In this document: positions 11,764 through 20,514 of the stretch, piece by piece
Layout: every line of letters starts with the position of its first letter
Numbering within the stretch: position 1 is the first letter of the stretch
NCBI GenBank assembly: GCA_007123785.1
Contig: SLGL01000146.1
Coordinates: 1 to 32,908 of the forward strand
Direction: 5' to 3'
DNA: 32,908 nt
Origin: Balneolaceae bacterium
Lineage (GTDB): Bacteria > Bacteroidota > Rhodothermia > Balneolales > Balneolaceae
Notes under the pieces: generated by a model
The model's input: only the letters and a program-made list of their open reading frames with translations
Told to the model about the DNA's origin: nothing
The model's database searches: none
Program-made: the position numbers and the translations under genes

Positions 11764-13707
11764 TCAATCAAAATACCGATCCAGAAAACAGGCGAAAGAT
11801 AAACCAGATAATGTGTTGCTGGCGTGAAGTCGCATTTCCGCTGGCTTTTGCCCATTTCCCAAAGCTTGAAGAGATCTGATTATTTTATCAAAATTCAAAT
11901 AACGGGATGCAACGGGGCTTTTCTCAAAATCCTTGATTAAAGCCACTATCTCTTCTTTGTGTTGAATAATACGAAGCGGAAAATCAGCTGCCTGCCTGCC
12001 TCTTCTTTTATTAAGGCGGATTTCATCCGTCAGAATACCTTTCATGGCATTCCTGAGAAAAGCTCTGTCCAGCCCGTCTCTTGTATAGAGCTCATTTGGA
12101 ATGCCAAAACAGTATTTTATCAGTTGAACATCTGCGGTAGGGTCACGTACTTCTAACTGATGCATGGCACCATGCCTGTGCCAGCCTCCGCATACGAGAG
12201 GTTTATTTATATCTATTACATTGGCCCGTTGAATTTCAGGCCTTTTGGGGGCCTTGAAATATTGGAAATCCTCAGATCTCTGAACGATTCGTCTCAATCC
12301 AATTTGATCACAAAATTCCGGATGAATAATGGAATATCCTTTCAAAAGTTTATTTCTTGATACATACAGAAATTCCCTTCGTTTCCATAAAGGCAACAGT
12401 ACCGGGGCCAGGAAATGCTTGGCAAAAAGAAATGGCGAGGAACGACCTCTGCGTTTTTTTTCTGCTTTAAGAGAATCCATTACGGTTCCAATTTTTCCAT
12501 CAAGCAGATCAAAAAAAACTTTATTTGAACCTCCATACCAGGAAATAACAGCGTTCCCTAACTGCCCGGTCAACAGTACACCAAGCCCCATATCCCTGCT
12601 CTGTTGCAAAATGGACAGTATCCAGTTCAAATTTACCCCCCTGTTTGTAGGTATACCGTATTCTTCTGCAAGCCTCAGAATTCCCTGATGAATGGGAACA
12701 TCAGAAGCATCAACACGGATGTGCCGCATATTTGGATATTTTTCGGTTAGCGTGTGCGCAACATCCCATTCATCAATGATTTTATCAGGGACCAATCTAT
12801 TTGCATTGTGCTTTGGCACGGAGGTAAAGGCAGGCAGTTTTACATTTTTTTTGCCGAGTTCATTTGCTGCAAAAGCTGTAATTGTGGTCGAATCCAGCCC
12901 CGCGCTCAGCGTAGTTCCAACGGGCCTTTTTGATCGTAATCGCACCTTCACCGCCCGGCTCATCTGGTCTATAAAACCTTCCGTATAATCCGAATGTGAT
13001 GAGTAATGAATCTGAGGTATGGCATCATACGACCAGTATGTAAAAACGTTTAACATACTACCCGATAGTGTTAATGCATCTCCTGGATGGAGGCTAAACA
13101 CATTTTTCCAGTAGGTTTGATTCCAATTTTCACGGCTCACAAAACCAATGAGCTGGCCTGCAAGATAGGCTTCATTCAGTTGGACATCTACATCATCCAG
13201 ATCAAGAATAGCGTGCAGGTCTGAAGAAAAAACAAAAACAGAATCGTTTTTGTAATAATGCAGAGCAGTGTTACCGAACGGATCTCTTGCGAGAAAAAGT
13301 TACTGCATTTCCGGGTGCCAGGCAGCAAACGCCCAATCACCATAAATATATTCACAGGTATCTTTTCCCCAGCGTAAGTAAGCCAGCTCTACGAGTTTTG
13401 TATCAGGTGTTTTGGGATGATGAGAGGCGGGAATAGCAAATAAATTCAACAATTCATCCCTGTTGTCCAGGCGTGCCGATGCAGTGAACAAAATATTTTT
13501 TTGATTCAAAATACAAGGCGCGTGGTCATATTCTGATTCCGGGGTGATGGATAACCTTGCCTGCCCCATACCCGCATTTTCCTTAGCGATTGTAAATACC
13601 CCGTCTGGTCCCCAAGGGCCAAGCCTTGGCTTCATCTTTTCAAGCTGTTCCTCAACTTCACTTTGCGGCCTGCCATCTAGTCGGATCAAACCAAAAATAG
13701 CACTCAT
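11764..13707 (-). pseudogene. lasso-peptide macrolactam synthetase (asparagine synthetase B-like, 'C protein') with one in-frame TAA
   Basis: N-terminal Ntn-like half MSAIFGLIRLDGRPQ...YIYGDWAFAAWHPEMQ, stop at 13300-13302, then in the same frame LFLARDPFGNTALHYY...and the synthetase half with the PPi-loop-like VGTTLSAGLDSTTITAFA; all codons in one frame, about 647 codons in total. Confidence 0.85.
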
Positions 13708-13747: not shown

Positions 13748-14023
13748 CTATCCAAGAACTTTGATCAGGCCTTTTTCTTTGAGATCCGGTAAAAAATTAA
13801 GTACTTCTTCCTGGCATTGTTCTTCAGAGATTTCATAAATATCTAAAAGTTCTTTGCACAGTTCTTCAACCGTTTTTTCCTCTTCTAGAAGGTTCCAGGC
13901 CGATGCGGCTACACGGTTTAATCCGTAATATTTACCAGCATCGGCATCAAACATCACCATTTCATCATCAATAGGAGAAGCAACAACATCCCCGGTTCGT
14001 ATTATTTTACTCTTCAGATTCAT
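13748..14023 (-). CDS. PqqD-like RiPP recognition element (lasso B1)
   Basis: 91 aa, MNLKSKIIRTGDVVASPIDDEMVMFDADAGKYYGLNRVAASAWNLLEEEKTVEELCKELLDIYEISEEQCQEEV...; classic PqqD/B1 pattern. Confidence 0.9.
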   Translation of the reverse strand: MNLKSKIIRTGDVVASPIDDEMVMFDADAGKYYGLNRVAASAWNLLEEEKTVEELCKELLDIYEISEEQCQEEVLNFLPDLKEKGLIKVLG

Positions 14024-14078: not shown

Positions 14079-14534
14079 TCAGGAAAATGTGGAAACCACA
14101 ACGTACTGATGAGCATTTTCACCACCGAGAATGATTTCAGGTCCAACTTTTAGCCAGGCATGGGCTTTAAGCTCTTTATTCTCTTTTCCTTTCTTGACAC
14201 CAAGAAACACCGTACATCCGATTTTTTTTCTGCGAAGCAACAATTTACCGGTTGCAGCTTGCACAAGGCATTCCGATTTCCAGGGCACGATTTCGCTCAT
14301 CCGCTCGATATAACGCGCCATGGCCCGTACCCAATTCCACTCTTTAGGTAGTTCTTGTTCCATATTCGAATGATTCTGTTCCCCCAGAAAAGGGGCGAGG
14401 TGTTTGAACGGCAGAAAAAGTATCATGAATCTGAAGAAAGCAAGCAGTATAAAAATCTCCATCAAAAGAAGCTTTCCCGAGAGTGGTTTTTGCAGAAAAC
14501 GGTGAATCAGTCTCTTCCTTTTTTTCCTACTCAA
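14079..14534 (-). CDS. lasso leader peptidase (B2, transglutaminase-like core)
   Basis: PWKSECLVQAATGKLLLRRKKIGCTVFLGV...LKAHAWLKVGPEIILGG: Cys and His positions of B2-type proteases; adjacent to B1. Confidence 0.9.
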   Translation of the reverse strand: MSRKKRKRLIHRFLQKPLSGKLLLMEIFILLAFFRFMILFLPFKHLAPFLGEQNHSNMEQELPKEWNWVRAMARYIERMSEIVPWKSECLVQAATGKLLLRRKKIGCTVFLGVKKGKENKELKAHAWLKVGPEIILGGENAHQYVVVSTFS

Positions 14535-14555: not shown

Positions 14556-15545
14556 TTATGATTGGTTCCATACATCATGCCGAAATCTTTTTGCAGCTTT
14601 CAGCAGCGGCTTGATACCATCGGGCACCCATAACTTATAAACCGATGTTTTTGAGGCAATCTGAATACAAAATTTCAATTTTTCTTCAGGAGGCCATTGC
14701 AGCCAGTTATCACCATAAAGATAGTGAAGCAAACTGATAACAGCTTTACCCGATGTTATCTTTTCTGTTCTGAACCTGTTGGCGCCCTTTTCCCGGCCCG
14801 ATAAAATGTAGATATTTTTCAAAGCTGCAGGGCCGTCAAAAAAATCAGTTCCGAATTGATCAGCATGGATCCAGCTCTCCGGGTAGTCGGGTGTATCCGG
14901 AAAAATCATTTTCAATTGGGTTTCAGTTAAATCAAGTTCCCGGGCGGTATGGTTAAAAAGTTTCAAAAGCGGATAACCAGACTGAACTACTGGAACATCT
15001 GAGTGAACATCGGTTACAGCCATATCATCGGCATGCAACTGAAAACCATTTAAGGCCAAGGCCGCTGAAATAGTAGACTTTCCCATTCCGCTTGGCCCTA
15101 AAAAAAGATATGAACATCCATCGAGTACAAGAGATGATGCATGCAACACAGTTTTTTTCTGAAGGTACAAAGTAGCAGCCATTGCCGGATTCAGTAAAAC
15201 AAATACAGCCTGATTCCAATCTCTGTTTGTTTGTGAAATGCTGATTTTTGATCCATCAAGATTATATTCAAAAATAGTTTCTCCCCCGGAATGATCTCTA
15301 TATATTAAATGCCATCCCCCCTCTTTTTTTTCCCAAATCCGGGTCATTGATTTAGTTTTCGGATTTTTAACTTTAGGTATGAAGCGATTTTTTTGGATAT
15401 AGAGATCAAAGTGATCTGCTGAAGTTCTATCCTTCTTTAAATCAATTTCACTTGCAACCGACAAACCGTAAAGCAGATAGGTTTTTAATAAATCACTGCC
15501 CACATCTGGATGATGAATAGACTTTGTATTAGATTCTGAATTCAT
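14556..15545 (-). CDS. HPr kinase/phosphorylase-like protein (putative lasso-peptide kinase)
   Basis: P-loop CSYLFLGPSGMGKSTISAALALNGFQLHADDMAVTD; HPrK-like family frequently found in RiPP clusters. Confidence 0.85.
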   Translation of the reverse strand: MNSESNTKSIHHPDVGSDLLKTYLLYGLSVASEIDLKKDRTSADHFDLYIQKNRFIPKVKNPKTKSMTRIWEKKEGGWHLIYRDHSGGETIFEYNLDGSKISISQTNRDWNQAVFVLLNPAMAATLYLQKKTVLHASSLVLDGCSYLFLGPSGMGKSTISAALALNGFQLHADDMAVTDVHSDVPVVQSGYPLLKLFNHTARELDLTETQLKMIFPDTPDYPESWIHADQFGTDFFDGPAALKNIYILSGREKGANRFRTEKITSGKAVISLLHYLYGDNWLQWPPEEKLKFCIQIASKTSVYKLWVPDGIKPLLKAAKRFRHDVWNQS

Positions 15546-15553
15546 AAAAACTT

Positions 15554-16495
15554 TTATGGGACAATCATTTGATTAAATTGTGCATCATACTCTAAAAAGA
15601 CACTTCTTATTTTCTCTTCAGAATGCCCTGACTGTAAACAGCTATTTTTCCACCTTTTTCTCATTTTCTTTATGAGTGATAGTTCCGAATTTTCAGCAAG
15701 CTTCAGAAGCCATTTGCCGCCTGTTTTCAGTTCCTGAACGGACTCAAAGCAAAGTGTTTCAAAGATCTTTACCAAAGCAAGGTAATCTTTCAATGGAGTT
15801 TCGGGATAAAGTGAATAAAAATGCTGAAACCGGAGCTTTTTACGCTCTTTCTGAACCTGCTCTTTGAAAACAATACTTGCCTGTTTTTTATGCCGGCGAC
15901 GCTGGAGCAGAATCATAGGAACATTACCAATTCGGCACTGACTTGATACCCGAATTGGCCACTCATAATCATCAAACATAATATTTTCGTCAAGTGGGAA
16001 TTTTTTTGCAAGTTCAGCTTTCATCATCATAACAGAATTGATTACAACGACCCGAAACAACATTTCTATCCGGATAGAATGATGGTGGACGGGACACCAC
16101 ACCGAATTATTTTTCGCACCTATATTTTTGTACCAGCTGCCACATAAATCCAAATCAGCAGCTTTCATATATCTTAATTGCTCTTCAAGTCTTTTAGAAG
16201 AGTATATATCATCCGAATCAGTTCTGGCAATATATGTTCCCCGTGCATGTTGCATGCCTTCATGAAATGCTTCCGAGTTACTGGCTCCATTCAAAAAAAC
16301 CGGCCGTATTCGGGAGTCACTATTCGCATACTCCTGAACAATTTGGGGAGAACTGTCGGTTGAACCACTTTCAACGATGATAAATTCAAAATCACCGAAG
16401 GTTTGTTTGAGCACAGATTCAATCGCCAAAGGCAGGTATTTTTCATAATTATAACTTGTCATGATTACTGACAAGTACGGAGCAGTATTCTTCAT
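15554..16495 (-). CDS. family 2 glycosyltransferase
   Basis: YLSVIMTSYNYEKYLPLAIESVLKQTFGDFEFIIVESGSTDSSPQIV...RTDSDDIYSSKRLEEQL. Confidence 0.9.
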   Translation of the reverse strand: MKNTAPYLSVIMTSYNYEKYLPLAIESVLKQTFGDFEFIIVESGSTDSSPQIVQEYANSDSRIRPVFLNGASNSEAFHEGMQHARGTYIARTDSDDIYSSKRLEEQLRYMKAADLDLCGSWYKNIGAKNNSVWCPVHHHSIRIEMLFRVVVINSVMMMKAELAKKFPLDENIMFDDYEWPIRVSSQCRIGNVPMILLQRRRHKKQASIVFKEQVQKERKKLRFQHFYSLYPETPLKDYLALVKIFETLCFESVQELKTGGKWLLKLAENSELSLIKKMRKRWKNSCLQSGHSEEKIRSVFLEYDAQFNQMIVP

Positions 16496-16498
16496 AAA

Positions 16499-17110
16499 CT
16501 ACGCATGAATTCCAAGTATTTGATCAACAGTGACATAACCGAACTTCTCCGCAAGTCTTTGAAACGTATAGCCATCGGCGAGATAACCACTCTTCTGATC
16601 CCAGCCCCCGATTTTAAAAAGTGCTCGTTTTTTTACCATAACCTGCAGGGAGTCTATATTCTTTACACGAACAGGGATGCCAGAAAGCACCTTGGGAGGG
16701 TTACCAAGATGTTTGGGGAGCGGTCCCAAATGCAGAATTTTGCAAACTGCAAATCCCGTTTCTATTTTTGTATCCGAGAGGGGAGCTAACATTTTTTCGA
16801 GAAAATGAGGGTAGATCAAATTATCATCATCTAAAAATACAATGAAATTGCCATTTGTATACTGAAGGGAAAACTGTCTCGGTGTATTCCCGAAATCGTT
16901 TGAATGTTCTGGCAAATGAATATATCGTAATTTGGATGAATTTCTCTCCTGTATATATTTTTCAAGAGCCGGATTGGGACCATCAGAACAAATAATGTGT
17001 TCCCAGTAAGAATGGGTTTGATATTCAACAGACCGGATGCAGCGTTCCAATATTTCCAAAGGCCTGTTCCAGGTTGGAGTGATCACTGAAACAAGGTTGT
17101 TTTCCATCAA
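16499..17110 (-). CDS. family 2 glycosyltransferase (short)
   Basis: LVSVITPTWNRPLEILERCIRSVEYQTHSYWEHIICSDGPNP...FIVFLDDDNLIYPHFLEKML. Confidence 0.9.
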   Translation of the reverse strand: MMENNLVSVITPTWNRPLEILERCIRSVEYQTHSYWEHIICSDGPNPALEKYIQERNSSKLRYIHLPEHSNDFGNTPRQFSLQYTNGNFIVFLDDDNLIYPHFLEKMLAPLSDTKIETGFAVCKILHLGPLPKHLGNPPKVLSGIPVRVKNIDSLQVMVKKRALFKIGGWDQKSGYLADGYTFQRLAEKFGYVTVDQILGIHA

Positions 17111-17253: not shown

Positions 17254-17283
17254 AAAAAAAGCCGTATTATAATAATACGGCTT
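17254..17283 (-). terminator. rho-independent terminator / attenuator between precursor and tailoring genes
   Basis: Perfect 11-bp stem AAGCCGTATTA (17259-17269) / TAATACGGCTT (17273-17283), 3-nt loop, followed on the minus strand by a run of 7 U (A7 at 17254-17260). Confidence 0.85.
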
Positions 17284-17310: not shown

Positions 17311-17424
17311 TTAGGAGTAACCTTCTCCGTCACTTCCTTCTCCCTCACCCATTCTTGTTTCTGAATAATCTTCTTCAACAATCTTGGGTGTTACCCATTC
17401 ATTTTTTTCTTCGAATCGATCCAT
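17311..17424 (-). CDS. putative lasso-peptide precursor, 37 aa
   Basis: MDRFEEKNEWVTPKIVEEDYSETRMGEGEGSDGEGYS; leader WVTPKIVEEDYSET resembles the YxxPxLxxxGxxxxxT B1-recognition pattern with Thr at -2; acidic Gly-rich core with Asp at core position 8; first gene of the same-strand lasso enzyme array. Track ORF 17311-17496 is an N-terminally extended reading. Confidence 0.8.
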   Translation of the reverse strand: MDRFEEKNEWVTPKIVEEDYSETRMGEGEGSDGEGYS

Positions 17425-17543: not shown

Positions 17544-18182
17544 TCAGATCAATGAATTTAAAGCGTTTCTGATAGCCTCACCACCTGAAAGCAGATCAAA
17601 CTCAAGCCCCGATGTTTCCGGCATCTCATAAATTTCTGCCAGTACTGCGGCTACATCAGCGCGCGGTATTTCACCACGGTCGAGATTTATTGCGGCTTTC
17701 ACCTTTCCTGTTCCCGGTTCGTTGGTCAGTCTCCCAGGTTTTACGATGGTATAATCAAGGCCGCTGTTCCGCAAGGCATCATCCGCTTCAGCTTTCGCTT
17801 TTTGATAGACCTGAAACACCTCATTACCCCGTGGCGTGTCCAGCCCCATCGCACTGATCATCACAAAACGGGAGATGCCATTTTTTTTCGCTGCATCGAT
17901 CAGTTTAATGGCACCATCACGGTCAACTGTCCACTTTCGGTCGGCCCCGCTTCCGGGACCGGCGCCCGCAGCAAAGAGCACGGCATCTGCATTACCAACC
18001 GCATCGGACAGATCATCAATCTGTTCAATGTCTGCAATGACCGGTTCAACTCCGGCTTTTTTCAGTTCTGCAACCTGTTCCTGTTTACGGACCAAACCTC
18101 TGACTTGGTGCCTGTTTTGAATCAAAAGCGGGTGGAGCAGACGGGCAATCTGCCCGGATGCTCCAACAATCGTAATTTTCAT
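17544..18182 (-). CDS. NAD(P)-binding atypical SDR (NAD(P)H-binding / YwnB-like)
   Basis: MKITIVGASGQIARLLHPLLIQNRHQVRGLVRKQEQ...DAVLFAAGAG...YTIVKPGRLTNEPGTGKV. Confidence 0.9.
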   Translation of the reverse strand: MKITIVGASGQIARLLHPLLIQNRHQVRGLVRKQEQVAELKKAGVEPVIADIEQIDDLSDAVGNADAVLFAAGAGPGSGADRKWTVDRDGAIKLIDAAKKNGISRFVMISAMGLDTPRGNEVFQVYQKAKAEADDALRNSGLDYTIVKPGRLTNEPGTGKVKAAINLDRGEIPRADVAAVLAEIYEMPETSGLEFDLLSGGEAIRNALNSLI

Positions 18183-19209: not shown

Positions 19210-20514
19210 ATGAAATCTCTATCCAGTTTATTGGTTTTGCTGCTCTGTTTTACTTTACCCCTGCAGGCACAAGACCGCCCTCATGTTTTTGAGGGAGCAG
19301 AAATCATTCCCATCACCGGCGAACCGATAACAAACGGTGTACTGATTGTGGAAAATGGTGTGATCACAGCCGTTGGTGAAACAGGCGCCATACCCATTCC
19401 TGATAATGCCGAGCGAGCCGATCTTTCCGGGAAAGTGATTATGCCGGGCCTTGTAGACACCCACTCCCATATCGGTTAAGGGGACGGAGGGGACAGATCT
19501 GCAGCCCTGCATGCCGATGTGCGCATCCTTGATACCATCGACCCGAGAAGTAAAACCTTCAGAAAAGCTGCTGCTGGCGGATTAACTTCCATGAATATCA
19601 TGCCCGGCTCAGGTTTACTGATGAGCGGGCAAACCGTCTATGTAAAACCCAAACCGGCCAACACCATCGAAGAAATGCTGATTATGGTGGATGAAGAGTC
19701 CGGTATCTACGGTGGGCTGAAAATGGCCAATGGCACCAATCCACTTCGCACCGATGGCACACCCGGAACGCGAGCCAAATCAGCCGCACTCGTACGCTCC
19801 CTTTTTGTTCAGGCACAGGAATACAAAACCCAGTTTGATGAAGCCGACGGCGATCCCGAAAAAAAACCATCCCGCGACCTCCAGATGGAAACCCTGGTTG
19901 AAGTGCTGGAAGGCAAGCGGATCGTTCACAATCACACCCACCGCCACGACGATATTCTCACCGCAATCCGCCTGGCTGATGAATTCGGTTATCGCATGGT
20001 TTTACAGCATGTAAGTGAGGGCTGGAAAGTAGCCGATGAAATCGCGGCTTCCGGTTATCCCGCATCCATTATCGGGCTGGACTCCCCCGGCGGGAAGCTT
20101 GAAGCGATCAATCTCCTCAACACCAACGGGAAGGAACTGGAACGAGCCGGAGCTGATGTAGCCTTTCACACTGATGATCCGGTTGTGGACTCACGTTTTT
20201 TCTTGCGGATGGCTGCTTTCGGAGTGAGAGAAGGAATGAGCCGTGAAAAAGCGCTCCAGGCCCTCACCATCGCCGGGGCCCGAATGATGGATATCGACGA
20301 TCGGGTGGGTTCGCTTGAACCGGGCAAAGATGCTGATTTTATCATCCTCTCCGGCGACCCGTTCAGTGTGTACACTCACGTACAGCAAACCTGGATTGAG
20401 GGGGAAAAAATCTGGGATCGCGACAATCCTGAAGACCGGGAATACGCCGTCGGAGGTTATGAAATCTTCCGGGCATCTGCAAACTCTCACACACACCTGG
20501 AGGGCTATAAATAA
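19210..20514 (+). pseudogene. secreted amidohydrolase interrupted by one in-frame TAA
   Basis: MKSLSSLLVLLLCFTLPLQAQDRPHVFEGAEIIPITGEPITNGVLIVENGVI...VDTHSHIG, TAA at 19477-19479, then same-frame GDGGDRSAALHADVRILDTIDPRSKTFRKAAAGGLTSMNIMPGSG...GSLEPGKDADFIILSGDPF. Confidence 0.85.

Follow-up and report, generated by a model that had tools for sequence, protein, structure and literature searches.

In the window, by which we mean the whole 32,908-nt stretch of Balneolaceae DNA analyzed here, the 37-residue open reading frame (ORF) at the head of a B1/B2/C gene cluster genuinely encodes a precursor from which a small modified peptide is made. With moderate confidence, we read it as a lasso-type RiPP precursor that would be cut after Arg24, phosphorylated on serine, and closed into a Met1–Asp8 ring with the tail GEGYS. 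This reading is favored by the content of the cluster, by a genome of the same genus (G065) with identical architecture and an intact C gene, by the co-occurrence of the ORF with C, by the acid at core positions 7 to 9 and its SDGxG context, and by the combination of a C-terminal Ser with an HPr-kinase homolog, which matches paeninodin biology (PMC8498205). It is weakened by the in-frame TAA that interrupts C both here and in a second relative, G069, by the lack of C in most relatives of the clade, by a 13-residue core starting with Met, by a kinase homolog that scores under curated cut-offs, by the missing transporter gene, and by an Asp8 in G069 that is not independent evidence. The original prediction of a RiPP precursor served by a B1/B2/C system is supported, and the peptide is encoded exactly as it had been quoted, on the minus strand, which had been left unstated. 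The original observation also made no mention of the hairpin behind the ORF, of the TAA in C, of the pairing of a Ser-ending core with a kinase homolog, or of the cyclase-less relatives. The sequence itself shows the ORF, the cluster, the synteny, the positional conservation, and the break in C, whereas cut site, ring, phosphorylation, glycosylation, and above all threading are predictions.

The leader motif by itself is weak evidence for a precursor: the W/Y..P.[ILV]...T pattern is expected about 0.6 times among the short ORFs of a base-shuffled 33-kb sequence. Moreover, the proposed fit to YxxPxL...T stands as regards the presence of the motif and departs from it twice, with Trp in place of Tyr and with Trp and Thr spaced by 13, where 15 is usual. 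What places the ORF beyond chance is its position, its conservation in G065 and G069, and its co-occurrence with C. Compared with G065, the ORF carries 8 base changes, and the fact that 7 of them fall on the third base of a codon (binomial p = 0.0026) supports its translation; codons 1 to 20 are identical, and the codon outcomes are six synonymous changes and one Ser-to-Thr replacement, which is the sole residue difference between the two precursors and lies in the core. A TTG start further upstream, giving a 61-residue ORF, was rejected since the residues it adds are not conserved in G065; translation thus likely begins at the ATG at 17424. The terminator-like hairpin lies directly 3′ of the ORF, and scans of the window for Rfam families and tRNAs gave no matches. 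The window is a single contig out of 515 in a draft genome with a completeness of 86%.

The precursor is the first gene of a cluster on one strand, followed by genes for two GT2 glycosyltransferases, the HPr-kinase homolog, B2, B1, and C (Table 1), and both this order and the flanking genes are matched in G065. The B2 alignment retains the Cys and HAW motifs, the relatives of B1 include lasso B1 proteins of solved structure, and the kinase homolog has a P-loop (GPSGMGKS) and an ADD motif whose residues are kept in all four aligned homologs. In split-B lasso systems, the leader is bound by B1 and cut by B2, and the core is cyclized by C. The window resembles these systems in its B1, B2, and C homologs, in the W/Y-x-x-P-x-I/L leader, in the Thr near the cut, and in the acid at core position 8, and differs from them in the 13-residue core, Met1, the spacing of 13, the interruption of C, and the absence of a transporter gene from the cluster in the ORF list of the window. 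By analogy, B1 would bind the W-x-x-P-x-I leader, B2 would cleave after Arg24, immediately behind the conserved Thr-Arg pair, and C would close a ring of 8 residues by coupling Asp8 to the amine of Met1. The HPr-kinase homolog would probably phosphorylate the C-terminal Ser ahead of cyclization, and the two GT2 enzymes, whose role is suggested by their family, may add sugar. As in clusters of the phosphorylated and phosphoglycosylated lasso peptides paeninodin and pseudomycoidin, an HPr-kinase homolog accompanies a Ser-ending core; the window differs in having two GT2 genes instead of a nucleotidyltransferase, in a kinase of weak similarity, and in a product that is predicted from the genes. 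Although the kinase homolog of paeninodin-type clusters phosphorylates the C-terminal Ser of the core (PMC8498205), the Bradymonas kinase BsfK targets Ser3 instead (PMC10368454), and for this reason the C-terminal Ser is only the presumed target here.

Table 1. Features of the precursor locus in the window
Feature	Position	Strand	Remarks
Precursor A, 37 aa	17311..17424	minus	leader residues 1-24 = 17424-17353; stop TAA
Predicted core MGEGEGSDGEGYS of precursor A	17352-17314	minus	13 residues
Asp8 codon of predicted core, proposed Met1-lactam acceptor	17329..17331	minus	position-specific conservation
C-terminal Ser codon, proposed phosphorylation site	17314..17316	minus	40/41 family matches Ser-ending; kinase precedent PMC8498205
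Terminator-like hairpin between A and enzyme genes	17259..17283	minus	11 pairs; conserved in G065
GT2-family glycosyltransferase 1	16499..17110	minus	PF00535 3.2e-18
GT2-family glycosyltransferase 2	15554..16495	minus	PF00535 1.8e-29
HPr-kinase homolog	14556..15545	minus	TIGR04352 3.3e-9, PF07475 2.6e-4; under curated cut-offs
B2 leader peptidase, transglutaminase-like	14079..14534	minus	NF033537 84 bits vs cut-off 33
B1 (PqqD/RRE)	13748..14023	minus	PF05402 1.5e-20; NF033536 75 bits vs cut-off 80
C, asparagine-synthetase-like macrolactam synthetase	11764..13707	minus	in-frame TAA at 13302-13300
NAD(P)-binding flanking gene, outside pathway	17544..18182	minus	marker of syntenic locus in genus

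A cut with Thr at −2 and Asp8 as the predicted acceptor, as originally proposed, are supported by precursors from other Rhodothermia. Comparison loci comprised 4 to 20 kb flanking C-like genes; the phylum-wide NF033535 search behind them matches many asparagine-synthetase-like proteins and served only to pick loci. Short ORFs near the C-like genes were searched with a precursor profile built on 14 hand-picked examples, and core starts were set by leader spacing (Thr at −2), blind to the positions of acids. Of the 48 cores, 30 carry an acid at positions 7 to 9, compared with 17.3 ± 3.1 after shuffling, and 27 carry Asp at position 8 or 9, compared with 9.4 ± 2.7; none of 2,000 shuffles reached either count, in a set that keeps near-identical rows separate and, given its hand-picked seeds and loose E-value limit of 20, may hold some rows that are not real precursors. 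The cores without an acid at these positions are mostly of one kind (L115, L117, L118, L119, L134, L135, and L143), whose leaders read, for example, W..P.LV.HGK or WARP. Four of these loci (L115, L117, L119, and L135) carry several adjoining precursors with the leader W..P.LV.HGK and cores such as GSCWYGKQGGQYDADLGPGTLSDCR, and their C homologs are among the top NF033535 scorers.

In the window, a precursor with an RRE-binding motif in its leader and with Thr at −2 accompanies B1 and B2, and its core shares more than an acid with three of the Rhodothermia precursors (L112, L114, and L136): counted from Thr at −2, these read S7-D8-G9-Q-G11 and the window reads S7-D8-G9-E-G11. Among permutations of the window core, SDGxG falls at positions 7 to 11 with a probability of 0.0024; the motif had been noticed before the test. 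The three precursors lie near C-like genes as well, and differ from the window in cores of 24 to 27 residues, a leader spacing of 15, and a more distant B1. The layout of Thr at −2 and Asp8 also agrees with the precursors of G069, whose core is acid-rich and whose Asp8 is no independent evidence, and of G113, where a 12-residue candidate core, GPYTDATDFGPS, is encoded on the opposite strand adjoining a C-like gene; B1 and B2 were not found on the contig carrying that candidate.

The core had been expected to be unusually short, and at 13 residues it falls one below the 14 to 24 given for natural lasso peptides in one 2019 review (PMC6784204), a range that is descriptive and not a definition; predicted cores of 21 to 42 residues have also been termed lasso (PMC7533575). 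Should the Met1–Asp8 ring form, the core would rank with the shortest of lasso type and would probe the minimum tail needed for the fold; the phrase "shortest lasso peptide" was not found in the open-licence literature searched. C might also close the Met1–Asp8 ring without GEGYS being held in it, giving a branched-cyclic, unthreaded peptide. The Gly-rich tail, in which Tyr12 is the sole bulky residue, and a total length under the cited range speak for such a product, whereas the 12-residue G113 candidate beside a C-like gene suggests that short forms may recur; we regard an unthreaded peptide as unlikely, though worth keeping in mind.

The link between the ORF and C is drawn from the same genus. 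At the B2 locus, the acidic precursor and C were both present in 3 of 10 genomes (the window, G065, and G069) and neither was found in the other seven (G049, G054, G059, G063, G066, G067, and G070), a co-occurrence with Fisher p = 0.008 if relatedness is ignored. Some of the seven loci are on short contigs, where a gene past the contig end could escape; C was also absent from all seven in a whole-genome search with the G065 protein (1e-20). It had been argued that relatives lacking the ORF next to conserved enzymes would count against a precursor. Such relatives do exist, since the seven genomes keep B2 and most of them B1, but all seven also lack C, and this ties the ORF to C.

The C gene itself is interrupted in the window, where codon 136 is an in-frame TAA and G065, with an intact C of 647 residues, has GAA. 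The final ring may thus not form in the window genome, whereas every gene is intact in G065. In G069, too, C is interrupted by an in-frame TAA, there at codon 115 in the N-terminal domain (L008 5499-5501). A contig search with C as query returned five loci, one of them G065 itself. Between the window and G065, C shows 110 synonymous and 78 nonsynonymous codon changes, within the range of the neighboring genes, so that no long relaxation is visible. The adjacent amidohydrolase gene (19210-20514) carries the same GAA-to-TAA change relative to G065 (19477-19479). No stops were seen in the domain matches of the window genome to ABC transporters (31) or TonB barrels (24), and frequent base error is therefore not evident. 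Both a local base error and true decay fit these data. Decay of the whole cluster in the window genome, with the ORF a relic there, would accommodate the TAA and the several same-genus genomes whose locus is reduced to B2 alone or to B2 and B1. We nevertheless consider it doubtful, given that the ORF, its leader, and the remaining enzymes have been preserved with a bias toward synonymous changes and that the second GAA-to-TAA change keeps a local base error possible despite the stop-free domain matches.

B1 and B2 alone do not justify assuming a lasso, since the systems nearest to the window in B1 and leader lack a cyclase and have cores that are rich in Pro and end in Ser. In the B1 tree, the proteins of the window, G065, G069, and further genomes of the genus form one group (support 96/94) with those of three cyclase-less Balneolales systems (G077, G129, and G131), apart from the B1 proteins of other Rhodothermia clusters. 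A profile built from the window, G065, and G069 precursors only (A1) matches G130 (1.3e-4) and G131 (1e-3), and one built from 11 precursors (A4) hits 24 of the 135 Balneolales genomes, with up to 11 matches in a single genome. The neighborhoods of many A4 matches contain 41 ORFs at E 0.01, of which 40 end in Ser; among the 37 with a clear Thr, cores have 9 to 17 residues and begin with Gln, with one exception to each rule. About 40 dispersed short precursors (L182 to L220) have a lasso-like leader, mostly Pro-rich cores, and no cyclase nearby. These Balneolales precursors (G066, G077, G132, and others) resemble that of the window in leader spacing (13 to 14), short core, C-terminal Ser, and related B1, B2, and kinase, and differ in that C is not nearby, that most cores are Gln-first and Pro-rich, and that they lie downstream of T9SS proteins. 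For about 30 of them, a long ORF with a T9SS-type C terminus is located just upstream on the same strand, with a T9SS sorting domain in the three upstream proteins scanned (G066, G077, and G132); such C termini number 33 in 194 kb of precursor loci compared with 2 in 249 kb of comparison loci. The window precursor shares the leader and the C-terminal Ser of the family, but its upstream neighbor is the NAD(P)-binding gene and not a T9SS protein. Ignoring shared ancestry, precursor matches are present in 14 of 17 genomes with B2 (p = 6e-12) and in 13 of 14 with the kinase homolog (p = 2e-12). C was not matched in the cyclase-less genomes with the G065 protein at 1e-20, a limit at which remote or unassembled copies would be missed.

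Within this family, too, an acid occurs at positions 7 to 9 in 24 of 37 cores. Acid position alone therefore does not separate Ser-ending peptides from lasso precursors, and what speaks for a ring in the window is that C is present, that Asp8 stands in an SDGxG context, and that precursor and C occur together. The grouping of the window B1 with cyclase-less systems, the existence of related precursors without C, and the stops in the C genes of the window and G069 would all suit a linear product, freed of its leader by B1 and B2, phosphorylated on Ser, and possibly glycosylated, with C vestigial in the lineage and missing in most of the clade. The intact C of G065, whose codon changes relative to the window are no more relaxed than those of neighboring genes, and the joint occurrence of the acidic precursor with C make this rather unlikely. 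The lasso-type peptide of the window is probably one cyclized branch of the wider Ser-ending family. We more tentatively suggest, as a proposal falling somewhat short of probable, that Balneolales B1, B2, and HPr-kinase homologs serve a large set of dispersed, trans-encoded Ser-ending peptides, each paired with a type IX-secreted surface protein and made cyclase-free, the window peptide being a branch in which C was retained or acquired and cyclizes the product. The finding connects a lasso cluster with a clade in which B1, B2, and a homolog of a Ser kinase persist without a cyclase, and makes testable a second, linear-peptide role of lasso enzymes tied to type IX secretion; if true, the trans-encoded peptides would be a cyclase-free RiPP class assembled from lasso parts. 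In the open-licence literature searched, we found no description of the Balneolales Ser-ending family and no paper joining "lasso peptide" and "Balneola."

Lasso cores commonly start with Gly, and cutting ahead of this residue (Thr at −3) would give GEGEGSDGEGYS, ring-closed at Asp7 or Glu9. Despite a rumen-bacteria survey that places Thr at −3 (PMC7533575), this cut is improbable: Thr at −2 sets the Rhodothermia acids at 8 or 9 and aligns S7-D8-G9-x-G11, and G069 has Phe at the position of the window's Met, so that the residue preceding Gly resembles a variable core residue.

A second locus with the kinase homolog and B1 (L236 5969-6109 and L240 6940-7026, minus strand) contains mini-ORFs with the leader W.KP.I.SLD that stop before a core. 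A nucleotidyltransferase has been reported to add hexose onto the phosphorylated lasso peptide pseudomycoidin, and a nucleotidyltransferase is present in two of the cyclase-less clusters, L033 (G132) and L038 (G077), with NTP_transf_5 in L038.
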